64,000 nucleotides of DNA from Planctomycetota bacterium (GTDB lineage: Bacteria > Planctomycetota > Phycisphaerae > Phycisphaerales > SM1A02), in assembly GCA_022574595.1 (NCBI GenBank), contig JACZRS010000002.1, positions 310,001 to 374,000 of the forward strand, read 5' to 3'. The notes under the pieces are model-generated. The model searched no databases. It saw nothing but the letters and a program-made list of their open reading frames with translations, and was not told where the DNA came from. The position numbers were made by a program, and so were the translations under genes. Of this stretch, positions 16,589 through 30,628 are shown in pieces (position 1 is the first letter of the stretch; every line of letters starts with the position of its first letter).

Positions 16589-17311
16589 ATGACTCGCAGG
16601 AAGCTATTACGTGCCCCCGCCCCCGGGAAACGCCAAAATGTATACGCAGCAAACAGAGATAACTCTATACGCAGCTTATATTTACGAATACAAGAGGATT
16701 GGCGCTATAACGGTGAAGATTGGACTCGCCCCGGTTTTAGAGCATTGGCTATGTACCGATTTGGTGTATGGCGAATGGGAATCCAATCGGACCTGCTGCG
16801 TTTGCCTTTGAATTTTCTATACAGATTCATGCACCGCAGCATTAGAAATCATTACGGAATCGAGCTTCATAGTACCGCTAAGCTCGGTCGGCGCGTGGTA
16901 ATTGCCCATCAGGGATCGATCGTAATCCATGAATTTGCTGAGATCGGCGACGATTGCGTCATCCGTCAAGGCGTAACGCTGGGCGCAGCTGGTCAATACA
17001 GTGTTGATGAAGCGCCAAGGCTAGGGCGTGGCGTAACTTTAGGTGCGGGTGCTGTTCTGGTTGGTTGTGTGAAAGTGGGAGATGGCGCCAAGATCGGACC
17101 AAATGCTGTGGTTATCGCGGACGTTCCCGCAGGATCGCTAGCTTTTGCTCCTCCGGCGAAGGTGATATCACAGGGTGGATTCGACCAAAAAGCTATTGAA
17201 CCCAAAGCCCAAACTGAGGCCCAAACTGAGACTATTCCCCAAGCTGAAATCAAAGAAAGTAACCAGCCGTTGCAATCTAATCTTCTGCCAATCCCAGTCG
17301 AGGCTGCGTAA
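16589..17311 (+). CDS. cysE: Serine O-acetyltransferase (hexapeptide repeat)
   Basis: Acetylates serine for cysteine synthesis. About 240 residues. The N-terminal region (SLYLRIQEDWRYNGEDWTRPGFRALAMYRFGVWRM) and left-handed beta helix (GIELHSTAKLGRRVVIAHQGSIVIHEFAEIGDDCVIRQGVTLG, then GVTLGAGAVLVGCVKVGDGAKIGPNAVV) resemble EpsC-like serine acetyltransferases and close relatives. The C-terminal 45 residues are Gln/Pro/Glu-rich and disordered. Strong Shine-Dalgarno AGGAGAAGG. An inverted repeat TTACACCC/GGGTGTAA (16480-16511) lies in the leader. Another acyl group cannot be excluded. Confidence 0.8.
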   Translation: MTRRKLLRAPAPGKRQNVYAANRDNSIRSLYLRIQEDWRYNGEDWTRPGFRALAMYRFGVWRMGIQSDLLRLPLNFLYRFMHRSIRNHYGIELHSTAKLGRRVVIAHQGSIVIHEFAEIGDDCVIRQGVTLGAAGQYSVDEAPRLGRGVTLGAGAVLVGCVKVGDGAKIGPNAVVIADVPAGSLAFAPPAKVISQGGFDQKAIEPKAQTEAQTETIPQAEIKESNQPLQSNLLPIPVEAA

Positions 17312-17425: not shown

Positions 17426-17863
17426 GTGCAGGAAGACTCAAGCGAAGAATTCACCTGGCGGGCGCACCCCGCTAGGGAGCGATTACCAATTGCGATAGCT
17501 GCTCTGATGTTGGTTTTGGCGATTTCGATAGCTATTTTTATCTCAGTTGATAGCTATTGGTGGGCGGGCTTGTCCTTTTTGGTATTGCTCGTTGCCTTGA
17601 ATCGCTTTTTTTTCCCGAGCAATTTTCACATCAATTCCCAGGGCATAACCGCTCGTTACCTGTTGAAAACACAAAAGTTAGCTTGGAAAGAGATCCGTAG
17701 ATTTATCCTAGATTCTCACGGAGGCTATTTATCAACCAGAGCTATACCTTCACGGCTGGACCCATATCGTGGGATGCATATTCTCTTCGGTCCTCATCGT
17801 GAGGCTGTAGTTAAGCAAATCCGTGCGCGATTAGCCCAAGGAGAGGCAGCGTGGGAGCAATAA
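17426..17863 (+). CDS. Small membrane protein of unknown function
   Basis: About 145 residues from GTG 17426. Two membrane segments back to back (residues about 22-60, IAIAALMLVLAISIAIFISV and AGLSFLVLLVALNRFFF), then a soluble region (FHINSQGITARYLLKTQKLAWKEIRRFILDSHGGYLSTR) of the bacterial PH-like type found in short membrane proteins. A strong AGGAGG at 17385-17390 lies too far from GTG 17426 but 5-8 nt from tandem in-frame ATC codons at 17396 and 17399, so the true start may be non-standard. The next gene begins before this one ends. Confidence 0.65.
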   Translation: MQEDSSEEFTWRAHPARERLPIAIAALMLVLAISIAIFISVDSYWWAGLSFLVLLVALNRFFFPSNFHINSQGITARYLLKTQKLAWKEIRRFILDSHGGYLSTRAIPSRLDPYRGMHILFGPHREAVVKQIRARLAQGEAAWEQ

Positions 17864-18285
17864 GGCAGAAAATCAAGCACGCATTTGCTGTGGATCCTTC
17901 GGGGCCAGCTGAGCCGACCGAGCAACAAAAGCCTGCTGTGGATTGGGTTTGTAATCAAATCGCAAAGCGAAGATTGACACTGCCGAGTCTTATTTTTCTG
18001 GAAATGGCAAGGCCACTTAATTACCTTGGTGCCCAGTGCATGCACTTTACTCAGCCGGGCATATGGGCGATTGCTCCCAAGCATATTTATGGGGGGTATA
18101 AGGATTTCGCCAAGTACCTCGAGCACCGAGGCTCTATGGAATATATGTGCAGGCGAATTGAGGAGATGGAAGCTGGTTATTTAGAGAAAGAAAACAAGCT
18201 AAAAGCTGAACGCAAGAAGATCAAAAAGGACAAAAAGAACAAACGAACTAACCCAAATCCAACTGAGAAGCATGACGAAGATTGA
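17851..18285 (+). CDS. Hypothetical protein with charged coiled-coil tail
   Basis: 144 residues, GTG start overlapping the preceding gene by 13 nt. Not recognised. The central part (CNQIAKRRLTLPSLIFLEMARPLNYLGAQCMHF, GIWAIAPKHIYGGYKDFAKYLEHRGSMEYMCRRIEEME) has the look of a compact helical domain; the final 35 residues are almost all Lys/Glu/Asn. It overlaps the start of the MutL-like gene by 14 nt, so it is probably co-translated with the operon that follows and may belong to it. Confidence 0.7.
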   Translation: MGAIRQKIKHAFAVDPSGPAEPTEQQKPAVDWVCNQIAKRRLTLPSLIFLEMARPLNYLGAQCMHFTQPGIWAIAPKHIYGGYKDFAKYLEHRGSMEYMCRRIEEMEAGYLEKENKLKAERKKIKKDKKNKRTNPNPTEKHDED

Positions 18286-20095
18286 CCCTGATAAAGTAAA
18301 AGTAATTCTCGCTACGGACTGTGGAAGCACTACGACTAAAGCGATTCTCATACAGCAAGTAGATGGCGAATATCGTCAAACACATCGCGGAGAAGCGCCC
18401 ACTACAGTCGAAAAACCATTCGCTGATGTGACGATGGGAGCGATTAACTCAATTACTGAAGTTGAGGAATTGGCGGACAGGCGACTTATTGGCGACGACG
18501 GTCGAATTATTCAACCCGCTACCGAAAACGAAGGTTGCGATATATTCATATCAACATCCTCAGCTGGTGGCGGTTTGCAAATGATGGTGGCTGGTGTTGT
18601 GGCGCAGATGACAGCTGCGAGCGCTAAACGGGCTGCACTTGGCGCGGGCGCGATTGTGATGGACGTTATTGCGGCTAATGACAAACGTCGGCCACACGAA
18701 CAGATCCAGAGGATACGCGAGCTAAGGCCTGACATGATTCTTGTTTCAGGCGGGACCGATGGCGGGAACACTACGCAGGTAGTGCAAATCGCGGAGCTTA
18801 TAGCACCCGCAAAACCTCAGCCACGCTTTGGTAGTGAATTTACTTTACCTTTGATCTTTGCAGGTAATAAGGATGCAGCTCCGCTAATCAAAGATGTCTT
18901 CGATGAAAGCATCGACCTGAGCATCGTAGAAAACCTCAGGCCAACGCTTGAGCAGGAAAACTTAGGTCCAGCCCGCGATGCAATTCACGACATGTTCCTC
19001 GAACACGTCATGGCCCACGCACCGGGGTATGACAAGCTGATGACATGGACGGATGCTCCGATCATGCCCACACCAGGGGCTGTGGGAAACATCCTTCAGA
19101 CAATTGCGCAGACGCAGAAGATAAACGTTGTAGGCGTAGATATCGGTGGAGCAACAACGGATGTGTTCAGCGTCTTTGATGAAACTTTTAACCGAACAGT
19201 AAGCGCTAACCTGGGAATGAGCTATTCAATCTCAAACGTCTGTGCTGAAACGGGAATGGCAAATATCCTAAGGTGGGTTCACTTTGACATGGATGAACGC
19301 GAGCTGCGCAACCGTGTTAAAAACAAAATGATACGCCCAACCACTATCCCGCAATCTAAAGAAGCTCTTATTTTCGAGCAAGCAGTTGCGCGTGAAGCTT
19401 TAAGGCTGGCTTACATTCAGCATAAGGAATTTGCTACAACCCTCAAGGGCGTACAGCAACAACGAACAGTGGGTGATACGTTCAGTCAAGAGATCGGCGG
19501 GCAGACTATTGTAAATAATATGAAGCTTAATCTGCTTGTTGCATCGGGTGGTGTACTTTCACACGCACCGCGAATGCATCAGACCGCTGCACTACTTATT
19601 GATGCGTTTGAGCCTGAAGGTTTTACTACCTTAGCTAAGGATTCGATATTCATGATGCCCCACCTTGGCGTACTAGCGCAGGTGCATCCTAAAGCATCGC
19701 TTGAAGTATTTACGCGTGACTGCCTGATTTATCTCGGAACCTGCGTTGCAGCTAAGGGGTTAGGTAAACATGACAAGCCTTGCTTTAGTTATGAAATTAC
19801 CGGCGAAACGCTAAACGAATCGGGGACGATCAACTTTGGCGATGTCAAATTATTGCCGCTTGGGCCTGATGAAACTGCTCAGGTAGCGATTGAGCCTGCT
19901 AAGGGATTTGATTTCGGTGCTGGGCCTGGCAAACGAGTTCAAAGAAAAGTGACGGGCGGAACGGTTGGACTTTTCTTGGATGGTAGAGGTCGGCCACTAA
20001 AACTACCCGAAGCTCGATCGGAATCTCAACAGACAATGAATCGTTGGGTTACCGCAATGGAGCTTTACCCAGAGATGGAAGCTGCTCTCGTCTGA
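18272..20095 (+). CDS. MutL-like (glutamate mutase L type) ASKHA-fold protein
   Basis: 607 residues. The actin/Hsp70 (ASKHA) nucleotide-binding motifs are clear: ATDCGSTTTKAIL (residues about 13-25, phosphate 1), VVGVDIGGATTDVFSV (about 285-300, phosphate 2) and VASGGVLSH (about 422-430, adenosine). This is the family annotated as glutamate mutase L, named for a gene beside B12-dependent mutases and thought to reactivate them. No mutase subunit is nearby. Instead, five genes follow with gaps of 46, 6, 12, 3 and -4 nt, encoding one soluble and four membrane proteins, so I infer a nucleotide-driven role in a membrane complex. Also has an Ala/Gly-rich insertion near residue 95. Confidence 0.8.
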   Translation: MTKIDPDKVKVILATDCGSTTTKAILIQQVDGEYRQTHRGEAPTTVEKPFADVTMGAINSITEVEELADRRLIGDDGRIIQPATENEGCDIFISTSSAGGGLQMMVAGVVAQMTAASAKRAALGAGAIVMDVIAANDKRRPHEQIQRIRELRPDMILVSGGTDGGNTTQVVQIAELIAPAKPQPRFGSEFTLPLIFAGNKDAAPLIKDVFDESIDLSIVENLRPTLEQENLGPARDAIHDMFLEHVMAHAPGYDKLMTWTDAPIMPTPGAVGNILQTIAQTQKINVVGVDIGGATTDVFSVFDETFNRTVSANLGMSYSISNVCAETGMANILRWVHFDMDERELRNRVKNKMIRPTTIPQSKEALIFEQAVAREALRLAYIQHKEFATTLKGVQQQRTVGDTFSQEIGGQTIVNNMKLNLLVASGGVLSHAPRMHQTAALLIDAFEPEGFTTLAKDSIFMMPHLGVLAQVHPKASLEVFTRDCLIYLGTCVAAKGLGKHDKPCFSYEITGETLNESGTINFGDVKLLPLGPDETAQVAIEPAKGFDFGAGPGKRVQRKVTGGTVGLFLDGRGRPLKLPEARSESQQTMNRWVTAMELYPEMEAALV

Positions 20096-20141
20096 TTTTT
20101 AACACTTTTACACAAATTACTTTTTTCAGATAAAAGAAACT

Positions 20142-21269
20142 ATGGCTAAGGCATACACACCAGGACTTAAAGTTACTAACCGCATCAAGCATCGCGTCAA
20201 GCGCATTTTGCCAATCCCTGGCGATGTGCTGGCAAAGGTTGGCGATGTTGTTAGCGCAGACGATATTGTCGCAGAAACATTCATGCCAGGCGATGTCGAA
20301 CCTATAAACCTTGCAAACCTGCTCTCCCTGCCTCCGAGGGATGTAGCGGAATGTGTACTTATAAAGGTTGGCACAAAAGTAAAAGTCGGAGAACCCCTTG
20401 CTCAAACCAAGGGAATGTTCGGCATGTTCAAAAATACTTACAACTCAAAATTTGCCGGTACTGTCGAGACTATTTCCCCAGTCACAGGCCAACTCATTCT
20501 TAGAGGCGAACCATTACCAGTACAAGTAACTGCTTATATCTCCGGTAAAGTTGTAGAAGTTATCGAAAATGAAGGCGTTGTCATCGAAAACGAAGTCTCC
20601 TTCATTCAGGGGATATTTGGTATCGGCGGGGAAACACATGGCCCAATTGTGATCGCATGTAAGAGTCACGATCAGGAAGTAACCGCAGATCTAATCACCT
20701 CGGATATGAAAGGTGCGGTAGTCATCGGAGGCGCGAGAACAACTGCTGATGCAATCATCAAGGTTCGCGATGTTGGTGCGGCTGCATTAGTAACCGGTGG
20801 AATTGATGACCAGGATCTAAAAGAATTTTTAGGATACGACCTGGGAGTTGCGATTACAGGAAGCGAAAAAGTCGGTTTAACACTCATCATCACCGAAGGA
20901 TTCGGTGAAATCTCCATGGCGGTGCGGACCTTTGATCTATTAAACACGAGAAAAGGTGATGAAGCATCGGTAAATGGAGCAACTCAGATTCGTGCAGGTG
21001 TGATGCGTCCTGAGATCATTATCCCGCTTACAGCTGAAGAAATTGCCCACGAAGTTGAGCAGGATCACTCGGAGGGCTTGCTGGAATTGGGCAGACCGGT
21101 AAGAATAATCCGCGATCCTTACTTTGGTTTGATAGGTGAAGTGGCAGCTTTGCCAACTGAACCTGCGGTTTTAGATTCCGGATCCAAGGCCCGCGTGCTT
21201 GAAGTTAAATTAGATTCCGGAGAGAGTGTCACGATTCCACGAGCAAATGTTGAGCTCATTGAAGGGTAG
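20142..21269 (+). CDS. Conserved protein with barrel-sandwich and KOW-like segments
   Basis: 375 residues, uncharacterised. No signal peptide. The N-terminal third is rich in short beta strands with repeated lipoyl/RnfC-like turns (GDVLAKVGDVVSADDIVAE, KVGTKVKVGEPLAQTKG, AGTVETISPVTGQLILRGEP). The middle has a Gly-rich Rossmann-like stretch (MKGAVVIGGARTTADAIIKVRDVGAAALVTGGID). The C-terminus has a KOW-type turn (IRDPYFGLIGEVAALP). Second gene of the MutL-like operon and its only other soluble protein, so it may be the cytoplasmic partner that contacts the membrane subunits. Confidence 0.7.
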   Translation: MAKAYTPGLKVTNRIKHRVKRILPIPGDVLAKVGDVVSADDIVAETFMPGDVEPINLANLLSLPPRDVAECVLIKVGTKVKVGEPLAQTKGMFGMFKNTYNSKFAGTVETISPVTGQLILRGEPLPVQVTAYISGKVVEVIENEGVVIENEVSFIQGIFGIGGETHGPIVIACKSHDQEVTADLITSDMKGAVVIGGARTTADAIIKVRDVGAAALVTGGIDDQDLKEFLGYDLGVAITGSEKVGLTLIITEGFGEISMAVRTFDLLNTRKGDEASVNGATQIRAGVMRPEIIIPLTAEEIAHEVEQDHSEGLLELGRPVRIIRDPYFGLIGEVAALPTEPAVLDSGSKARVLEVKLDSGESVTIPRANVELIEG

Positions 21270-21275
21270 GTTGGC

Positions 21276-22562
21276 ATGAATAGATTTCTTATTGTCTCGC
21301 TAACAGCTTCGGCGATAGCGTTAGCTGGACCACCTCAGCAAACAGCTATTGCTCAAGAAGCAAAACCAGCTCCGCCAAGCAATCTCACCGCAACAGATCA
21401 TCCATGGGATAACGGAGAGGTGCTGGACTTGGCATGGGATGCACCAGCAGGCGGTAATGCTGATGGTGAATATTTCATTCTCCGGACAGTCGCAAAGGTC
21501 GGCGATCAAATCGTCACGCACGATTTTAAGATCATCGACTCCGCACCGGGCGATGCAACAAGTATAGGCGTTGAAGTCAAGCACCACCTAAAGCGTGCAG
21601 CAGTTCGTCAGCTTGGAGACCGCATAGATTTCGAAGCTATTTTAGCAACAGGTGAATACAAATTTACCGTTGGGTATCTATTTCAAATCGTTTCTGTTAA
21701 CGCGGATGGAGTTCGATCATCGCCTGCTCAAACAGCAGAAATTGCCTACGCAACAATGCAGCCATTCGATTTAGGAAGATTGGCGCTGCTTTGCGTTACG
21801 ATAATTTTATGTGGGGCTGTGATTTTCTGGATCAGGCGAGCCCGCAGTGGCAAGCCTATTAAAGTTCGCAAGATCGCAGGACTCGAAGCTGTCGATGAAG
21901 CGGTGGGGCGCGCCACAGAAATGGGACGACCCATTCTGTATGTTCCAGGAATTCAGGATATCAATGAAATCCAAACCATCGCGTCAATGACTATTCTCTC
22001 ACACGTATCAAAAACCGCAGCTGAATATGATGCCAAGGTTGAAGTGCCTACTTCCAAATCATTGGTAATGACAACAGCGCGCGAAACTGTTCAGGCAGCA
22101 TTCCTGGCAGCGGGTCGGCCAGATGCTTACAACAAGGATCTGATTTATTATGTAACTGATGAGCAGTTTGGTTATGTTGCGTACCTTCAAGGCATGATGG
22201 TTCGTGAAAAACCCGCAGCTTGCTTTTATATGGGAGCCTTCTTCGCTGAATCTCTGATTCTTGCTGAAACCGGCAACTCCATCGGTGCAATTCAGATCGC
22301 AGGTACGGCGATGCCCGCGCAGCTCCCGTTCTTTGTAGCAGCATGCGACTACACACTAATTGGTGAAGAGTTCTTCGCTGCCTCAGCGTATCTTTCAGGT
22401 TCTCCCGAAGAACTGGGAAGCCTCAAGGGACAGGATGTTGGCAAGGTGTTTGTTGCACTTGTGCTGATCATCGGCGTACTCATGGCAACTGCAGGTTCAA
22501 TGCTCGACTCACCTGCAATTAAAGAAGCTGTTGAGTACTTAAAGAATACTCTTCTAACATAA
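21276..22562 (+). CDS. DUF6754-like membrane protein with N-terminal FN3-like domain
   Basis: 428 residues. Signal peptide (1-26), a fibronectin type III-like domain outside the membrane (about 33-160: PSNLTATDHPWDNGEVLDLAWDAP, YLFQIVSVNADGVRS), a membrane segment (about 167-187), a conserved cytoplasmic domain (LEAVDEAVGRATEMGRPILYVPG, VPTSKSLVMTTARETVQAAF, GAFFAESLILAETGNSIGAIQIAGTA) and a last membrane segment at about 393-412. The central domain resembles that called DUF6754. Six bp after the preceding gene. Function unknown. Confidence 0.72.
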   Translation: MNRFLIVSLTASAIALAGPPQQTAIAQEAKPAPPSNLTATDHPWDNGEVLDLAWDAPAGGNADGEYFILRTVAKVGDQIVTHDFKIIDSAPGDATSIGVEVKHHLKRAAVRQLGDRIDFEAILATGEYKFTVGYLFQIVSVNADGVRSSPAQTAEIAYATMQPFDLGRLALLCVTIILCGAVIFWIRRARSGKPIKVRKIAGLEAVDEAVGRATEMGRPILYVPGIQDINEIQTIASMTILSHVSKTAAEYDAKVEVPTSKSLVMTTARETVQAAFLAAGRPDAYNKDLIYYVTDEQFGYVAYLQGMMVREKPAACFYMGAFFAESLILAETGNSIGAIQIAGTAMPAQLPFFVAACDYTLIGEEFFAASAYLSGSPEELGSLKGQDVGKVFVALVLIIGVLMATAGSMLDSPAIKEAVEYLKNTLLT

Positions 22563-22574
22563 GGATCCCGGCGG

Positions 22575-23273
22575 ATGAAAAGACAAATACCGCTTCTTAT
22601 AGCAATGATTGCCGGGTTCGTCATGATCGTGGCGTACTTCATCCCATATACCGTATCATGGGGTGATACGGTCATTGTCTGGTTCGATGTTCTGGCAGCA
22701 ATCGCATTCGTGCTTGGCGGGGGCAACCTGCTGAAAGTCCACCTCAAGAAAACATCTGATCAAGTGCCTGGTTGGGGCTATTCCGTTATTACCATCGTTG
22801 CGTTTGTTATTATGCTTGTGATTGGCCTGGGCAAGATTGGAGTGAATCCTGCTGCGAAGTACCCGGAATTTGCCTGGTCGGGAAAATTCAGCGAAATGGG
22901 ATCACCGTTCTGGTGGCTTTACGAATATGTTTTCAAACCACTCCAGGCAACAATCTTTTCAATGCTGGCGTTCTATGTTGCGTCCGCAGCTTTTAGAGCA
23001 TTTCGAGCTAAGAACATTGAAGCAATTCTCCTGCTTGCAACAGCCTTCATTATCCTGCTGGGTCGAACTGCAGCAGGGCCAGCACTGACAGGCTGGTTCC
23101 CAGATGCAATCGAGGGGTTGGAAGCGGATAAACTTACCTCATATCTGATGACTGTTTTTAATACTGCGGGCAACAGAGCAATTATGATCGGTATCGCTCT
23201 TGGAACTGCTTCGGTATCGCTAAAGATTCTACTGGGCGTCGAACGATCTTATCTTGGATCTGGAGAAGAATAA
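22575..23273 (+). CDS. Polytopic membrane protein of the MutL-like operon
   Basis: 232 residues, about six membrane helices (visible at roughly 6-26, 33-48, 66-85, 112-135, 148-162, 200-217). A conserved-looking loop GGGNLLKVHLKK follows the second helix. No known domain recognised. Starts 12 bp after the DUF6754-like gene with GGATCCCGG upstream and ends 3 bp before the next gene, so it is an integral part of the operon. Confidence 0.72.
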   Translation: MKRQIPLLIAMIAGFVMIVAYFIPYTVSWGDTVIVWFDVLAAIAFVLGGGNLLKVHLKKTSDQVPGWGYSVITIVAFVIMLVIGLGKIGVNPAAKYPEFAWSGKFSEMGSPFWWLYEYVFKPLQATIFSMLAFYVASAAFRAFRAKNIEAILLLATAFIILLGRTAAGPALTGWFPDAIEGLEADKLTSYLMTVFNTAGNRAIMIGIALGTASVSLKILLGVERSYLGSGEE

Positions 23274-23276
23274 GCC

Positions 23277-24158
23277 ATGATCGAATTCCTTAAAAACTTA
23301 GATCGACGCTGGATCTTTCTCCTGATGTTGTTATCTGTGGCTATACCAATCTTGCTTCAGACACAGTTTGAAGAGACACCTTCTAAACTTTCTATAGCTG
23401 TATTTGACCAACTCGAAAAGCTTGAAGAAGGTGACAAAATCCTGCTTGCGTTCGACTTCGATCCGGGAAGTGAGGGCGAGCTGGGGCCTATGGCGACTAC
23501 TTTCGTACGACACTGCTGCGAGAAGAAACTGAAGATGTACTTCATGGCCCTTTGGCCCGTTGGCGAACAAATGATCGTCGACAACATTGCCAGGGTTATC
23601 AAAGCTGACTTTCCAGAATTGGTTTACGGTACAGACTATATGAACCTCGGGTTCAAAGCTGGAAACGAAGGGGTCATAAAAGTTGTCCTAACAGATATGC
23701 GTCAGCTTTACACAACAGATGCTGAGGGAACCGCAATCGATGAAATCCCAATGATGCAAGGCGTAGACAACATCAAAGCAATGGATCTGATGATTAATAT
23801 CTCAGCGGGTTATCCGGGAACCAAAGAATGGGTTCAATACGCAGTAACTCGTTATCCAGATAAAATTACCTTGGTTGCAGGCTGCACAGGCGTGCAGGCA
23901 CCGCTTCTTTATCCATATATTCCTCAACAACTCCCCGGTTTGCTTGCAGCAATTAAAGGGGCTGCGGAATACGAAAAGCTTGTCATGGATAAGTATGGCA
24001 AACGCGATGCTGATGGCAATATGGATGAGGAGGGCAAATACTTCGAGGGCCGAAGAAGGATGGGGCCTCAGCTTGTCGCCCACGTGCTTATGGTTCTGCT
24101 GATTGTTGTGGGAAACCTTATCTTCTTTGCTGAACGAAGACGGGAGAAACGCCAATGA
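23277..24158 (+). CDS. Membrane-anchored protein of the MutL-like operon
   Basis: 293 residues. An N-terminal helix (about 12-30), a large extracytoplasmic or cytoplasmic alpha/beta domain (about 40-260) with LLAFDFDPGSEGELGPMATTF, VVLTDMRQLYTTDAEGT and DLMINISAGYPGTKEW, and a C-terminal membrane helix (about 268-285) ending in basic residues. The alternating pattern of the domain suggests a Rossmann-like fold; I do not recognise its family. It overlaps the next gene by 4 nt (ATGA). Confidence 0.72.
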   Translation: MIEFLKNLDRRWIFLLMLLSVAIPILLQTQFEETPSKLSIAVFDQLEKLEEGDKILLAFDFDPGSEGELGPMATTFVRHCCEKKLKMYFMALWPVGEQMIVDNIARVIKADFPELVYGTDYMNLGFKAGNEGVIKVVLTDMRQLYTTDAEGTAIDEIPMMQGVDNIKAMDLMINISAGYPGTKEWVQYAVTRYPDKITLVAGCTGVQAPLLYPYIPQQLPGLLAAIKGAAEYEKLVMDKYGKRDADGNMDEEGKYFEGRRRMGPQLVAHVLMVLLIVVGNLIFFAERRREKRQ

Positions 24159-25120
24159 ACAAATCTAATCGTTTGTGGGTAATCCTGTTTATTATAGGGG
24201 CAGTCCTGGTTGCGGGACGCATGCTCATAAGCCAAAGCTTAATAGGCAAAGCTTATGTACAAGCTGTGCCGGTCAACGCTGATGAAGAAAACGAAGATCA
24301 CAAGTGGACTCTTTACGAACAGTCAAGCCAAACCAAATTCAATGAAGCAGTCCTGGAAGACCCGAATCAAACTAAATACTTGTTCAGCTTCTCAAGAACA
24401 ATTGGCGTTTGGATTGCTGCACTCTTAACAATATTTGTTCTGTCATTTCTCATTAGAGACAATCCGTTATACAAATTCGCGGAATCCATTTTTATAGGGA
24501 TATCAGCTGCTTACTGGATGGTCGTAGGCTTCTGGTCAACTGTTGTTCCCAACCTATTTGGAAAACTCTCACCAGATATGGTGCGCGACTGGGCAATGCC
24601 CGGGCTGGGGATAGATGAACGAGTTGAGCTAATGTACATCGTGCCACTGGTGCTTGGACTTATGCTGCTTTGGATACTTTCACCAAAGGGTGGTTGGATA
24701 AGCAGATGGCCAACGGCGTTTATCATCGGCGTGTTCTGTGGCCTAAGGCTTATCACATTCATTCACGCAGACTTCCTAAGCCAAATCCGTAACGGAATTG
24801 CTCCTTTGTGGATGGTAGATAGTTCAGGATCATTTGATTTCTGGGAATCGCTGCGAAATGTATTTCTAATCATCGGTGTTCTTTCCTGTCTCGTCTACTT
24901 CTTCTTCTCGTTTGAACACAAGGGCATTATTGGCAAGACCGCGAAGCTGGGCATCTGGTTCATGATGATTACATTCGGTGCCGCCTTCGGCTATACCGTC
25001 ATGGGTCGAATTGCTCTGCTGGCCATTCGCCTGGAGTTCCTCTTTGACGATTGGCTCTGGCTTATTGACCCGACGGGTAAGCGGCTAGAGGCTGTGATAT
25101 CCATGCTGGGGCTGTTCTGA
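24155..25120 (+). CDS. Polytopic membrane protein, last gene of the MutL-like operon
   Basis: 321 residues with about seven membrane helices (first at about 8-24; others near 85, 112, 165, 190, 228, 262). An early extracytoplasmic loop is acidic (VNADEENEDHKW). No known family recognised. Start is coupled to the preceding stop by ATGA. About 195 bp without a gene separate it from rpmF, marking the end of the operon; no clear terminator hairpin was found. Confidence 0.72.
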   Translation: MNKSNRLWVILFIIGAVLVAGRMLISQSLIGKAYVQAVPVNADEENEDHKWTLYEQSSQTKFNEAVLEDPNQTKYLFSFSRTIGVWIAALLTIFVLSFLIRDNPLYKFAESIFIGISAAYWMVVGFWSTVVPNLFGKLSPDMVRDWAMPGLGIDERVELMYIVPLVLGLMLLWILSPKGGWISRWPTAFIIGVFCGLRLITFIHADFLSQIRNGIAPLWMVDSSGSFDFWESLRNVFLIIGVLSCLVYFFFSFEHKGIIGKTAKLGIWFMMITFGAAFGYTVMGRIALLAIRLEFLFDDWLWLIDPTGKRLEAVISMLGLF

Positions 25121-25210: not shown

Positions 25211-25314
25211 TGGCAGCTTGCTTGCCTTGACGTGGGCATCCGGCAATCGCAGATTGATTCCGGCATATGGGCAGGACTAACCTCAGAAAATGGGCACTTT
25301 TAGGAAGGACCAAA

Positions 25315-25500
25315 ATGGCCGTTCCCGCATTTAGAACTTCTCCCGCTCGCAAACGTAGGCGACGATCACATCTAGCAATCAAAGCTGATGCACATGTGGT
25401 TTGTCCAAACTGCGGAGACGCCAAGCGGCCTCATCACGCCTGCACATCCTGTGGATTTGTAAAACCAGGTCTTCAGGTACGAGTCGGCGAGGAAGACTGA
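25315..25500 (+). CDS. rpmF: Ribosomal protein L32
   Basis: 61 residues. Typical bL32: MAVPAFRTSPARKRRRRSH, then a four-cysteine zinc ribbon CPNCG...CTSCG. The start at ATG 25315 is fixed by the conserved N-terminus AVP; the upstream in-frame codons are not part of the protein. First gene of the rpmF-plsX-fabH-fabD cluster, an arrangement found in many bacteria; 3 bp before plsX. Confidence 0.95.
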   Translation: MAVPAFRTSPARKRRRRSHLAIKADAHVVCPNCGDAKRPHHACTSCGFVKPGLQVRVGEED

Positions 25501-25503
25501 TCC

Positions 25504-26535
25504 ATGCGGATCGGACTGGATGTGATGGGGGGGGACAACGCCCCGGACGCTATCATTGATGGAGCCCTGGGGTCACTAGACCAACTTGACCAGGACGATC
25601 AATTGGTACTGGTTGGTGATAAAGAGATTATTGAAAAAGCAATCTCCGATAGAGGCGTCGATGATCCACGCCTGGAAATTATTGCATCAACTCAGCAATT
25701 CCCCAATGATGTCTCGCCTGTCGAAGCAATTCGAGGTTACCCCGATAGCTCGATAGCTGTCCTGGCGGAAATCGCAAGTGAGCGCAAATCAAGTAAACGA
25801 GGCATTGAAAAAGTAGATGGAATTATCTCCGCAGGTAACACTGGCGTTTGCGTTACAGCAGCGCAAATGTCAATGCGAAGATTGCCCAATGTAAGCCGGC
25901 CCGGCATCACTTGCACTATTCCGACATTTGCGGGGCCTGTTGTTCTAATTGATGTGGGCGCAAACATCGAACCCAAACCTCACCATCTTGCTCAATATGG
26001 CGTAATGGGTGGCATTTATGCACAACTAATACTCGGTATTGATAATCCTCGCGTTGCGCTAATGAATGTTGGTGGAGAAGAGCAAAAGGGCACAAGCCAC
26101 ATGAGAGATGCCCGAGATCGCCTTCGTTCTACTCCATCGATCAATTTCATTGGGAATATAGAAGGCAGAGCTGTGTTTAACGGCGAGTCTGATGTTGTCA
26201 TCACAGATGGGGTTGTGGGCAATGTCATGATTAAACTCGCAGAGGGACTCTCAGCGGGGATCTTCAAAGCCATCGGTAGAGAAGTTAACGCAATCGATCC
26301 AGATCTGTCCAAGCGGCTTGAAGTCGTCATTAAGAAAATCTACGCGGATCACGATTATCACGAATATGGCGGAGCACCACTACTCGGAGTTAATGGACTT
26401 TGCTTGATTAGTCACGGTTCAAGTGTTGCACGAACTTTCACTAATGCAATAATTCGATCAATACAGTTTTGCAGTTCGGGTGTAAACCAAGCGATCTCTG
26501 AAAAACTCGCGCTTCAAGAAGAAGCTGTTGTATGA
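25504..26535 (+). CDS. plsX: Phosphate acyltransferase PlsX
   Basis: Makes acyl-phosphate from acyl-ACP for phospholipid synthesis. 343 residues. Recognised by MRIGLDVMGGDNAPDAIIDG at the N-terminus, GIISAGNTGVCVTAAQ, VLIDVGANIEPKP, ALMNVGGEEQKG, NFIGNIEGR and DVVITDGVVGNVMIKLAEG. Overlaps fabH by 4 nt (ATGA), so the two are translationally coupled. Confidence 0.95.
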   Translation: MRIGLDVMGGDNAPDAIIDGALGSLDQLDQDDQLVLVGDKEIIEKAISDRGVDDPRLEIIASTQQFPNDVSPVEAIRGYPDSSIAVLAEIASERKSSKRGIEKVDGIISAGNTGVCVTAAQMSMRRLPNVSRPGITCTIPTFAGPVVLIDVGANIEPKPHHLAQYGVMGGIYAQLILGIDNPRVALMNVGGEEQKGTSHMRDARDRLRSTPSINFIGNIEGRAVFNGESDVVITDGVVGNVMIKLAEGLSAGIFKAIGREVNAIDPDLSKRLEVVIKKIYADHDYHEYGGAPLLGVNGLCLISHGSSVARTFTNAIIRSIQFCSSGVNQAISEKLALQEEAVV

Positions 26536-27533
26536 CAATGGTTCATAAATATGGCGTGCACATCGCCGGCACTGGTTCAGCCGTTCCACCACGCATACTT
26601 ACAAATGCCTGTTTGGAAAAAATTATTGATACTTCTGATGAATGGATTGTTCAGCGAACAGGTATCCATGAACGAAGAATTGTAGATCAAGACAAAGAAG
26701 GGACATTCACACTTTCATGTGATGCACTTAATAATGCACTTGATGATGCTTCAATAAGCCCATCAGAGTTGGACCTGGTAATCGTTGCTACAGTTACCGG
26801 CGAAATGACTTGCCCTGCGGTTTCAGCAAGAGTTGTATCTACAATCGGCGCTACTCCTGCAGGAGCATTTGACCTACTGGCTGCGTGTTGTGGGTTTGTA
26901 TACAGCATCAACGTCGCAGATGCGATTGTCCGAAGTGGGCGCTACAAGACAGTAGGAGTGGTTGGATGTGATGCAATGAGTACTGCGGTGGATTACAAGG
27001 ATAGATCCGTTTCGATTCTCTTTGGTGATTGTGCTGGCGCGGTGATTCTTACTCGTGATGACGATCCTGAAATAGGGTGCTTATACCAAAACATGCACTC
27101 TGATGGAGCACATTGGGAATCGCTTTATATACCAAGGCGAAAACAAGAAATCCCAGATTGTGACAAGGATAATCCTAACGTCTTAGGTACTCTTCGCATG
27201 AAGGGACGCGAGATCTATAAATTCGCAGTTTCAAAGATGAGGCTGATGATTGAAGAAGCTTTAGAAGCTACGGGTCTTGATGCGGATCAAATCAGCCAAT
27301 TCATTTGCCATCAATCTAATCTGAGAATCATAGAATCTGCTCGAGATAAACTCGGATTGCCACGCGAAAAGGTATATATCAATATCGACAAGTATGGAAA
27401 CTCCTCAGCTGGTTCTGTTGGACTTTGCTTTGATGAAATTCGACGAGCGGGGAAGGTAAAACCAGGCGATTACATAATGTTCATAGCAATCGGCGGGGGG
27501 TTAACCTGGACAACAAGCGTCTGGAAAGTTTAA
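26532..27533 (+). CDS. fabH: Beta-ketoacyl-ACP synthase III
   Basis: Starts fatty acid synthesis by condensing acetyl-CoA with malonyl-ACP. 333 residues. Catalytic Cys in FDLLAACCGFVYSI, His in FICHQSNLRIIE, Asn in KYGNSSAGSVGL; N-terminal IAGTGSAVPPRILTN and TSDEWIVQRTGI. The alternative ATG six nt later (MVHKYG) may be used. In operon between plsX and fabD. Confidence 0.94.
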   Translation: MTMVHKYGVHIAGTGSAVPPRILTNACLEKIIDTSDEWIVQRTGIHERRIVDQDKEGTFTLSCDALNNALDDASISPSELDLVIVATVTGEMTCPAVSARVVSTIGATPAGAFDLLAACCGFVYSINVADAIVRSGRYKTVGVVGCDAMSTAVDYKDRSVSILFGDCAGAVILTRDDDPEIGCLYQNMHSDGAHWESLYIPRRKQEIPDCDKDNPNVLGTLRMKGREIYKFAVSKMRLMIEEALEATGLDADQISQFICHQSNLRIIESARDKLGLPREKVYINIDKYGNSSAGSVGLCFDEIRRAGKVKPGDYIMFIAIGGGLTWTTSVWKV

Positions 27534-27569
27534 CAACTAAACATCTACCATCCAATTGGTCTCTAGCAA

Positions 27570-28496
27570 ATGTCACAAGAACCAATCGTAATTCTGTGTC
27601 CCGGCCAAGGTGCTCAGGCTGTAGGAATGGGAAAAGCCTGGCGGGATGCCAGTGATGCTGCTGCAAGTACTTTTAGGGAAGCGGATGAAATTCTCGCAAA
27701 TTCGCTTGGTGCGCCGCTAAGTGAACTTTGCTTTGAAGGGCCTGCTGAAAAGTTAAATAGAACAGATATCACACAGCCGGGCCTTTATGTCTGTGGCGTT
27801 GCCAGCTATCGGGGTATGGTTCAGCTACATGGGCCCATGCCGATCGCCGCTGCTGCGGGTCTATCGCTTGGGGAATACACAGCTTTACATCTGGCTGGTG
27901 CGTTTGATTTTGCCCAAGGCTTAAAACTCGTTGCTCTGAGAGGCAAACTCATGCAGGAAGCAGCTGAGGCTATTGATAGTTCGATGGTCGCCTTGATTGG
28001 AGCAGATGAGGAGCAAGCCCAGGCGATCTGCGATGAGGCCTCACAAGGCGAGGTGCTGGTCACCGCAAACTTCAATGCACCCGGTCAAATAGTCCTCTCA
28101 GGACACACCTCAGCCTGTAATAGGGCTGTCCAAGCTGCCCAGGAGAAGCAGATCAGGGCCACGAGCCTTACCGTGGCTGGGGCCTTCCATTCACCACTTA
28201 TGCAGTCAGCAGCTGATAAGCTAGGCGAAGCTTTAGCGTCAATCACCATTGGGGAGTTGAAAACGCAGGTTTGGTCAAATGTCACGGGAAAACCCCATGA
28301 TCCACATAATCCGGAACTTATTAGGCAAAGGCTCGTCGAACAGATTATTAACCCTGTTCGTTGGGACGAAACCTGTCAACAGCTCGCCCTAGAGGGTACA
28401 ATGGAGTTCCGTGAACTCGCCCCCAGCGGTGTGCTTCGAGGACTAATGCGTCGTATCAACCGTAACGTGAAGGTACACAAACATGATGAACCGTAA
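27570..28496 (+). CDS. fabD: Malonyl-CoA:ACP transacylase
   Basis: Loads malonyl groups on ACP. 308 residues. Nucleophile elbow in AAAGLSLGEYTAL (GxSxGE), glutamine oxyanion motif LCPGQGAQAVGMG at the N-terminus, catalytic His in VAGAFHSPLM. 36 bp after fabH. The lipoprotein gene that follows starts 14 nt before this stop. Confidence 0.94.
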   Translation: MSQEPIVILCPGQGAQAVGMGKAWRDASDAAASTFREADEILANSLGAPLSELCFEGPAEKLNRTDITQPGLYVCGVASYRGMVQLHGPMPIAAAAGLSLGEYTALHLAGAFDFAQGLKLVALRGKLMQEAAEAIDSSMVALIGADEEQAQAICDEASQGEVLVTANFNAPGQIVLSGHTSACNRAVQAAQEKQIRATSLTVAGAFHSPLMQSAADKLGEALASITIGELKTQVWSNVTGKPHDPHNPELIRQRLVEQIINPVRWDETCQQLALEGTMEFRELAPSGVLRGLMRRINRNVKVHKHDEP

Positions 28497-29307
28497 ACGA
28501 AACATGATCATAGCCGTGGGCAATTTGGCCTGCGTGGCTGTGATTGTCGCAATGACCGGATGTGGAAGTGAAGAGCCAGAAACAGCGCCTGTTGTTTATA
28601 CACCCCCACCACCACCACCTCCTGCAGCTCCAACTGTAACCCCAGTTCAGACCCTTATGAGCCAATTGGGTATTGATGAACGAATTGAAATGGAAGAGGA
28701 ATGGGCTCCGGACAACGATGAAGGTCGCATAGCCGTTCTGGAATTCTTCGATGCATTTGCACGTGGCGACAACACAGTGGTTGCAAGCATGCTTTCTATG
28801 GCGGATCGCATGGAACTTGACGCATTGGTCGAGTCAGGCAAGTGGAGCAGCATAACAGCTCAGATTTCCCGTATTCAAATTCAGGCTGGATACAATCCTA
28901 ATGACCCGAAGACTGCAAAAAGCAAGGGCGATGCCTGTACGGTTGCAATGATTTTCGTTGGTACATCCTTTCAGCCGCAACTTTGGCACTTTAGTAGTGA
29001 CGACTACGATGAAGGCATGGTCTTTGGTGCTGGCGCAACTCCACCAGGGATAATGGATCGGCTTACTGGTACTGACTGGATCGCAGCGTGGTTTGGCATC
29101 CTCGATGAAGAGTGGGCCCTTGCCGACGTTCCGGATGAAGAACTGTTCATCGCGCAAAAGAACTATGACACTGGCGACGATGGCGAATCCAGCGGTAGCG
29201 GCCCCGATGCTAGACCAGACAACCCAATGTCACCAGGAGGCGCACCGGGATTAGGCAGGCGAAAGAGACCAGGTGGTAAGCGAAAGCCACCAGGCCCTGG
29301 CGGCTAA
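28483..29307 (+). CDS. Predicted lipoprotein of unknown function within the fab cluster
   Basis: 274 residues. Lipobox VAMTGC at about residues 21-26 after a hydrophobic segment, then a polyproline spacer (TPPPPPPPAA) and a domain (VLEFFDAFARGDNTVVASMLSMADRMELDALVESGKW) of the type seen in SnoaL/NTF2-like folds, with a Gly/Pro/Lys/Arg-rich C-terminal tail. No family recognised. It overlaps fabD and precedes a strong terminator, so it ends the rpmF-fabD transcript. Confidence 0.7.
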   Translation: MMNRKRNMIIAVGNLACVAVIVAMTGCGSEEPETAPVVYTPPPPPPPAAPTVTPVQTLMSQLGIDERIEMEEEWAPDNDEGRIAVLEFFDAFARGDNTVVASMLSMADRMELDALVESGKWSSITAQISRIQIQAGYNPNDPKTAKSKGDACTVAMIFVGTSFQPQLWHFSSDDYDEGMVFGAGATPPGIMDRLTGTDWIAAWFGILDEEWALADVPDEELFIAQKNYDTGDDGESSGSGPDARPDNPMSPGGAPGLGRRKRPGGKRKPPGPGG

Positions 29308-29372
29308 ATAAGCAAACTGAGAAGGCTCTGCAAGATAGTAGTTGGCTTCCTCAGTAATGACACTACAATCCA

Positions 29373-29401
29373 GGCCCGCCAATTAATGGCGGGCCTTTTT
29401 T
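29373..29401 (+). terminator. Rho-independent terminator after the lipoprotein gene
   Basis: Perfect 9-bp stem GGCCCGCCA/TGGCGGGCC with a 5-nt loop (ATTAA) followed by six T. Splits the fab cluster into two transcription units. Confidence 0.92.
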
Positions 29402-29436
29402 ACTTTACGATTTTCTTCACCACTGCAGTTTAGAAT

Positions 29437-30183
29437 TTGAGGTCAATCATCGAGCAACGCATCGCAATAGTTACTGGAGCCAGCCGCGGAATCGGTCGAG
29501 CAATTGCTGAACGGCTTGCTGCCGATGGACGCTTGGTTGTTTTAGTCAGCCGTTCCGCGGATGCACTAGAAGAAGTTCATCAAGCCATATGCCAAGCTGG
29601 CGGTCAATCCGAAGTTTTTGTGTGCGATGTAGCTGATGGCGATGCTCTTGGATCTACAATAGAAGGCATTGCTTCAAAGCATGGCCGACTTGACATCCTG
29701 GTAAACAACGCAGGAATGACGCGAGATGGACTTTGCCTGAGGATGAGCAATGAGGATTTCGATCAAGTAATAAATGTAAATCTACGCTCAGCGTTTATCG
29801 CTTGTAAAACAGCGGCCAGGCCCATGATGCGCGGTCGATTTGGCCGGCTGATAAATATCGGGTCAGTAGTCGGCCTCGTCGGAAACGCCGGCCAGGTCAA
29901 CTACGCAGCAGCCAAGGCTGGTCTATCTGGAATGACCAAATCATTTGCCAAGGAGCTTGGCCCTAAGGGAATTACCGCAAATGTCATCGCGCCTGGCTTT
30001 GTTGATACAGCAATGCTTGAAGCCCTTTCCCCTCAGATAAGGGAGCAGGCAGCTAAAGCTTTGCCGGTGAGGAGGTTTGCCAGGCCCGAGGAAATCGCCC
30101 ATGCGGTCTCGTTTGTAGCCTCAGACCTCGCCAGCTACTTTACAGGCCAAGTACTTACCGTAGACGGTGGAATGGTCTGCTAG
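29437..30183 (+). CDS. fabG: 3-oxoacyl-ACP reductase FabG
   Basis: NADPH-dependent SDR of fatty acid elongation, about 248 residues. VTGASRGIGRAIAERL, LVNNAGMTRDGL, SVVGLVGNAGQVNYAAAKAGLSG with the Ser-Tyr-Lys triad, and YFTGQVLTVDGGMVC. The start is unusual: an in-frame TAG lies at 29431-29433 and no ATG or GTG precedes the fold. TTG 29437 is the only standard choice but has no Shine-Dalgarno; GAGG at 29439-29442 is instead 6 nt before an ATC (29449). Confidence 0.92.
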   Translation: MRSIIEQRIAIVTGASRGIGRAIAERLAADGRLVVLVSRSADALEEVHQAICQAGGQSEVFVCDVADGDALGSTIEGIASKHGRLDILVNNAGMTRDGLCLRMSNEDFDQVINVNLRSAFIACKTAARPMMRGRFGRLINIGSVVGLVGNAGQVNYAAAKAGLSGMTKSFAKELGPKGITANVIAPGFVDTAMLEALSPQIREQAAKALPVRRFARPEEIAHAVSFVASDLASYFTGQVLTVDGGMVC

Positions 30184-30268
30184 GGGCTTTTTGATGATTT
30201 TATGCTTCCACAATAAGGCGCAAGCCGACTTTTCTGATATATCAATAAGTTGCCCAAAGCAGCTTTCT

Positions 30269-30296
30269 TTTACTTAACAGGTTTTGTGGCTATAGT
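30269..30296 (+). promoter_or_regulatory. Candidate acpP promoter
   Basis: TTTACT (30269-30274), 16-bp spacer, TATAGT (30291-30296) in the 169-bp gap before acpP. ACP is usually highly expressed and often has its own promoter. Confidence 0.45.
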
Positions 30297-30352
30297 GACC
30301 GCCTGATATCAGTGTACAGACGTACATCGTTACTTTTTGAGGAGAGTTCACC

Positions 30353-30628
30353 GTGACGGAAACCGAGATCGAAGCCAAAGTGATTGATATCGTCGCTGAG
30401 CAAATGGGCGTCGATAAAACCACGATCACACGCGACACTAACTTCACCAACGATCTTCATGCAGACAGTCTCGACACAGTTGAGTTGGTCATGGAGTTCG
30501 AAGACGAATTTGAAACGTCGATCCCGGACGAACACGCAGAGAAGATTCAAACGATCGGCCAGGCAATTAGCTTCATCAAAGAAGCGGTTGGTGCCGAATC
30601 TAACGATTCCTCCTCTGCTCAGGCCTAG
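30353..30628 (+). CDS. acpP: Acyl carrier protein
   Basis: 91 residues. Phosphopantetheine attachment at Ser in [19 protein letters not shown]; typical acidic four-helix protein with [13 protein letters not shown] before it. GTG start with GAGGAGA about 10 nt upstream. The C-terminal 10 residues (SNDSSSAQA) exceed the usual length by a few. Confidence 0.95.

Follow-up and report, generated by a model that had tools for sequence, protein, structure and literature searches.

Several described proteins resemble parts of the gene set reported here. The GlmL/MutL proteins (PF13941; NF040745, TIGR01319), named for GlmL as an accessory protein of methylaspartate mutase, form an ASKHA family with conserved ATP motifs, DUF6754 (PF20539) is a Pfam entry of unknown function, and the scaffolds of the PilM, GspL and FtsA type are ASKHA proteins encoded together with inner-membrane proteins. 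The same combination of an ASKHA protein with inner-membrane proteins occurs in an operon of a Planctomycetota bacterium (SM1A02; contig JACZRS010000002.1), which we analysed within a stretch of 64,000 nucleotides (the window, whose coordinates are used for this locus). This operon encodes a long MutL-type protein, a protein with a barrel-sandwich hybrid (BSH) domain and a quartet of membrane proteins, one of them a DUF6754 member, in an order that is kept in at least ten phyla. Our preferred interpretation, to which we give a probability of roughly one half, is that the quartet forms a four-subunit inner-membrane complex and that the cytoplasmic MutL-BSH pair acts on it as a shared ATP-driven actuator or chaperone.

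The operon spans positions 17426-25120 and comprises eight + strand genes, which overlap at three junctions and are nowhere more than 46 bp apart:

17426-17863, + strand: PH-like membrane protein, an optional first gene (145 aa; transmembrane (TM) hairpin followed by a bPH_6-like domain)
17851-18285, + strand: small amphipathic protein (144 aa; family core of about 97 aa, with the motif P-x4-LE-x3-P in the family alignment)
18272-20095, + strand: long MutL-type ASKHA protein (607 aa; PF13941 match; C-terminal extension at about 485-607)
20142-21269, + strand: BSH protein (375 aa; a barrel-sandwich hybrid domain, then a glycine-rich centre and a KOW domain at the C terminus)
21276-22562, + strand: DUF6754 protein (428 aa; a signal/anchor, then an FN3-like external domain and a cytoplasmic Rossmann-like domain with a TM on either side; PF20539)
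22575-23273, + strand: 6-TM protein ('TM5' family; 232 aa, N-in/C-in; without Pfam family)
23277-24158, + strand: two-anchor protein ('anch' family; 293 aa; periplasmic Rossmann-like alpha/beta domain between two TMs; without Pfam family)
24155-25120, + strand: multi-TM protein ('TM8' family; 321 aa, about six predicted TMs; without Pfam family)

A first-pass annotation of this DNA had described six of these genes, and their open reading frames (ORFs) are present exactly where it had placed them, on the + strand and with the spacing described (gaps of 46, 6, 12 and 3 bp from MutL onwards, then one 4-bp overlap). Its start of the operon at 18272 has to be moved to 17426, as homology and synteny show that two further upstream genes belong. 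One of them is the small gene at 17851, which had been mentioned as a possible member; it overlaps both the PH-like and the MutL gene. The product of the other, the PH-like gene, matches PF10756 weakly (E 0.0077). The domain calls stood up as well: the MutL-type and DUF6754-like proteins match PF13941 (E 2.3e-127) and PF20539 (E 5.8e-123), many homologues of the second gene carry barrel-sandwich (Biotin_lipoyl/RnfC_N-like) and C-terminal KOW matches, an FN3-like fold is predicted on the external side of the third, and the remaining products are polytopic (genes 4 and 6) or two-anchored (gene 5). The upstream neighbour, an acyltransferase-like gene, ends at 17311, and scans of the operon for sigma-70 promoters and terminators gave results no better than those from shuffled sequence. 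The operon is made up of two linkable modules, namely (small)-MutL-BSH and the DUF6754 quartet.

Conserved order across phyla had been put forward as a check on this gene set, and the order is indeed kept. We searched profiles of the window proteins in 40 planctomycete loci and in 79 loci taken from a DUF6754 scan across 84,980 species genomes, in which at least 582 stretches matched, at least 576 of them being true relatives. Among the matches listed, carriers belong to at least ten phyla (names as deposited): Planctomycetota, Zixibacteria, Neomarinimicrobiota, Gemmatimonadota, Latescibacterota, Cloacimonadota, Fermentibacteria, WOR-3/Stahlbacteria, Coatesbacteria and Calditrichota, with further carriers in isolated Acidobacteria or Deltaproteobacteria bins. 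DUF6754 is followed in order by the 6-TM, two-anchor and multi-TM genes for 138 of 160 DUF6754 ORFs in 120 loci, with median intergenic gaps of 8, 2 and -4 bp, and the two-anchor gene lies between both expected neighbours in 141 of 146 cases (four of the five failures are contig edges). This order is far beyond chance. The other module is similarly ordered: BSH follows 63 (of 71) MutL instances, DUF6754 comes after BSH in 69 of 78 cases, MutL or DUF6754 after the small gene in 54 of 57 loci, and 23 of 25 PH-like genes are followed by the small gene. No flanking gene is conserved across phyla; flanks are lineage-specific (for example pyruvate phosphate dikinase in Zixibacteria and a fatty-acid cluster in Phycisphaerae).

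In Planctomycetota the genes co-occur almost without exception, also when they are not adjacent. Among 246 Planctomycetota genomes, DUF6754 is found in 62, BSH in 59 and the two-anchor gene in 63, and all three are found together in 56; the carriers span 28 families. Fisher tests of co-occurrence give p values of 1e-44 to 1e-58, which are only indicative as relatedness is ignored. All 11 Planctomycetota carriers assembled in at most ten contigs have DUF6754, BSH, two-anchor and MutL genes. The first-pass annotation had regarded scattering of the genes in other genomes as a refutation, and in part such scattering is observed: in family f48 the small gene, MutL and BSH are grouped apart from the quartet, and in part of family f30 the 6-TM, two-anchor and multi-TM genes are located elsewhere. 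Separated parts are nevertheless still found in the same genomes, as BSH is encoded elsewhere in 19 of the 20 genomes (mostly from other phyla) chosen for having no BSH near the quartet.

Quartets can be multiplied within a genome. Tandem arrays contain two copies in twelve loci and three copies in ten, and DUF6754 was found in 80 of 80 sampled genomes of the phylum of a Zixibacteria bin, mostly in 4-6 copies. Among the genomes of this phylum checked for BSH, the six that have any carry one stand-alone BSH gene each, and one of them has an extra fused copy. Because quartets outnumber BSH genes, the MutL-BSH pair is probably shared among several quartets, as an actuator common to them, instead of being one fixed subunit per complex. 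Two arrangements of quartets recur in Zixibacteria-type genomes. Downstream of triple quartets (L238 186-3493, with 12-13 loci like it) come a gene for a conserved protein of about 107 aa and one for pyruvate phosphate dikinase. In addition, there is often a short quartet that lacks FN3, in a conserved setting of housekeeping genes with the order lpxH-like, panC, quartet, NDP-sugar nucleotidyltransferase, metK, ahcY (in L237, L239, L242 and L243, and partly in L240, L241, L245 and L246).

Gene fusions provide an additional link between the two soluble proteins. In three phyla, single ORFs of 835-993 aa encode a MutL domain and, after it, a BSH portion that lacks the KOW. Such fusions occur in a Zixibacteria-group genome (L227 8010-10958) and in Cloacimonadota-related genomes (L225 11844-14825 and L226 8047-10953). 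L193 8275-10749 and L194 8310-10817 are likewise fusion loci. In Planctomycetota, G169 carries two such ORFs (824-839 aa depending on the start) and G124 a shorter one. Since three phyla have them joined in a single reading frame, MutL and BSH probably interact, and the fusions indicate a joint action. Several adjoining ORFs were discarded: those upstream of the fused gene in L193 are antisense artefacts, and those next to BSH in L189 and L188, considered as MutL candidates, encode SelB and an FHA/GAF/cyclase protein instead.

The MutL protein, which is the sole MutL of the window genome, belongs to the same ASKHA family as GlmL over the full 450-residue model (426 bits, positions 1-450) and has the same ATP motifs. 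Phosphate-1 (DCGSTTTK), phosphate-2 (DIGGATTDV) and adenosine (SGG) motifs are about 98% or more conserved among 63 system homologues, as are many other positions of the protein (likewise 98% or more). A nucleotide-dependent cytoplasmic component, as had been proposed, is in keeping with this complete set of motifs, and MutL presumably uses ATP. Unlike GlmL, the operon protein reaches 607 aa through a C-terminal extension with a conserved terminal motif (G-G-x-x-G-x3-D-x-R-G-R), and is paired with BSH and the membrane quartet.

Most BSH members give barrel-sandwich matches and 11 of 55 give a KOW match, while the mean column identity across phyla is 61% in the alignment. The best match to a Biotin_lipoyl-type family reaches E 3.5e-09 for one member; a role as a biotin or lipoyl carrier was rejected upon inspection, the window BSH region 72-125 having no MKM-type attachment-lysine motif. 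Many members also match the barrel-sandwich models of RnfC and NqrA, weakly and partially (best E 9.4e-06 for RnfC_N and 9.1e-05 for NQRA_N), and such matches are common to many barrel-sandwich families. In contrast to RnfC and NqrA, BSH has a KOW domain at its C terminus and a central region that differs, and neither Pfam nor NCBIfam models detected an Rnf or Nqr subunit over cut-off among the operon proteins, RnfC_N being sub-threshold for BSH. Searches by sequence for relatives of solved structure (Protein Data Bank) returned none that was convincing for BSH, the two-anchor protein or DUF6754.

The window DUF6754 protein (21276-22562) is a full member of PF20539 (409.5 bits for a gathering cut-off of 27). 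Its AlphaFold2 model has a predicted local distance difference test (pLDDT) score of 85 overall and of 94-98 in the cytoplasmic domain. This domain aligns to Sir2Af2 (VIA Z 11.8; root-mean-square deviation 3.4, 141 aligned), the MthK RCK domain (9.8), GmhA (9.6) and CODH epsilon (9.5), a level common to Rossmann folds, and the external part to an FN3 domain of titin (Z 8.4). The two-anchor protein was modelled with a pLDDT of 95.7 and a predicted template-modelling score of 0.91; the best Z of its domain is 9.0, with CODH epsilon at 8.5 and TrkA at 8.0, again at the level common to Rossmann folds. Foldseek searches with both domains returned nothing at E < 0.001. By the positive-inside rule, the Rossmann-like domain of DUF6754 is predicted to be cytoplasmic and that of the two-anchor protein periplasmic. 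The predicted topologies fit an inner-membrane complex with a cytoplasmic partner, in line with the membrane complex suggested by the first-pass annotation, and the four proteins would assemble into such a complex. Many polar residues are invariant. External regions are variable: FN3 is lost in some lineages, and the 6-TM protein can carry long insertions in its periplasmic loop. In one locus (L065 4075-6006), the periplasmic domain of the two-anchor protein contains a large HEAT-repeat insertion. We also considered whether the DUF6754 domain shares its origin with the two-anchor domain, and the 6-TM protein with the multi-TM protein; neither pair shows profile similarity, and both proposals were rejected.

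Three other explanations were weighed, and a small part of the probability is assigned to none of the four. That MutL is the reactivase of a B12-dependent mutase, with incidental membrane neighbours, could be proposed from its membership in the Pfam family of GlmL and from the methylmalonyl-CoA mutase encoded elsewhere in the window genome. Genome searches make it very improbable: none of 12 carrier genomes, including that of the window, has glutamate mutase E (PF06368) over cut-off, which agrees with the earlier remark that no mutase gene is nearby, and methylmalonyl-CoA mutase was not found in four of the 12, including the single-contig genomes G024, G105 and G217. Moreover, the operon MutL lies below all GlmL cut-offs (229.9 against 475 for the equivalog and 168.9 against 204.05 for the subfamily) and has its extra C-terminal region, while short MutL proteins of the quartet-less planctomycetes G197 and G235 do pass the subfamily cut-off; nor would incidental neighbours be expected to co-occur and stay adjacent over at least ten phyla. 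We consider it unlikely, although far less so, that MutL serves as an ASKHA scaffold with slow or no hydrolysis, in the manner of PilM, GspL or FtsA, and that it builds with BSH the cytoplasmic platform of a machine for secretion, adhesion or motility that spans the envelope and has its outer parts encoded elsewhere. The association of an ASKHA fold with inner-membrane proteins whose periplasmic domains are large and whose FN3, HEAT or loop insertions vary would fit such a machine, as would the mostly diderm lineages of the named carriers. However, the neighbours viewed are lineage-specific housekeeping genes, and no outer-membrane, pilin, secretin or cytoskeletal gene travels with the operon among them; the absence of any pilin, secretin, secretion ATPase or division gene seen beside the set would also set it apart from the PilM, GspL and FtsA systems. 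In addition, fully conserved ATP motifs exceed what a static scaffold needs, and one BSH for several quartets fits a fixed platform poorly.

A sensor, redox or ion-coupling device, in which the two Rossmann-like domains, one per membrane side, would bind a nucleotide or cofactor while an electron or ligand carrier would dock on the RnfC/NqrA-like BSH barrel, appears slightly more doubtful still. It could draw on the RnfC_N and NQRA_N matches, on the alignments of the DUF6754 domain to Sir2, MthK RCK and CODH epsilon and of the two-anchor domain to CODH epsilon and TrkA, and on the many invariant polar residues. These Z-scores are nonetheless ordinary for Rossmann folds and Foldseek adds nothing to them, barrel-sandwich domains are also found in unrelated proteins (including RNA polymerase), and the operon contains no Fe-S, flavin or haem subunit.

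Under the shared-actuator interpretation, we infer from the genes and their predicted products a physical complex, ATP turnover, coupling between the two modules and a role in transport. MutL would open and close around ATP as its relatives do, probably hydrolysing it, and BSH would relay this movement to DUF6754 at its conserved Rossmann-like domain in the cytoplasm. The membrane core made of the 6-TM and multi-TM proteins would then hand the change on to the alpha/beta domain in the periplasm and to the variable FN3 and loop regions, which may contact lineage-specific partners or cargo. Periplasmic parts are variable whereas BSH is highly conserved, in favour of this interpretation. Because one MutL-BSH pair appears to serve several quartets, a recycling actuator or a reactivating chaperone would be likelier than a fixed subunit, and the most likely overall job is energy-driven transport or remodelling, at the cell envelope or across it.

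Several observations weigh against this interpretation. One genome (G153, 99% complete) has MutL and BSH and no DUF6754 or two-anchor match; conversely, G249 has five DUF6754 genes and no BSH match, and six planctomycete draft genomes carry DUF6754 without BSH. The MutL-BSH fusion genes are located away from quartets, and the pair may thus have a second client or a separate use. ASKHA proteins can be static scaffolds. Finally, the DUF6754 cytoplasmic and two-anchor domains are modelled as Rossmann-like without clear relative, and these fold matches appear uninformative on function.

Among the known systems compared, assignments hold only for single protein families (PF13941 and PF20539), and none covers the whole gene set. 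Among Creative Commons-licensed articles of PubMed Central, we found no published description of the gene set and no paper on DUF6754, PF20539 or PF13941, and nothing relevant on GlmL (an earlier description elsewhere is possible). None of the eight operon proteins matched the PADLOC-DB defence models at E up to 0.01, and an anti-phage defence system was rejected on this ground. DUF6754 was detected in none of 14 control genomes; since it is present in every sampled genome of the Zixibacteria-centred phylum and in at least ten phyla, the gene set likely does something basic that model organisms lack. The MutL ASKHA family would thereby gain a role without glutamate mutase and tied to membranes, and three protein families that Pfam does not hold are defined here (6-TM, two-anchor and multi-TM). 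We tentatively propose an ATP-driven membrane machine of a new class, in which a dedicated ASKHA-BSH motor or chaperone would be shared by several paralogous four-subunit inner-membrane complexes that would have a Rossmann-like domain on each membrane side and serve core envelope biology in Zixibacteria and many further diderm phyla. Because named isolates carry DUF6754 (e.g. Thalassoglobus neptunius), the question is open to genetics and biochemistry.

In the window, the operon is followed after 146 bp by a rpmF-plsX-fabH-fabD-lipoprotein-fabG-acpP cluster (25267-30628), and much of this gene order is found again beside the operon in six other Phycisphaerae-type loci. Within the class of the window genome, DUF6754 was detected in none of 16 sampled genomes other than its own, a patchiness that would reflect repeated loss or patchy inheritance; the fatty-acid-cluster synteny is nonetheless common to other Phycisphaerae-type bins.

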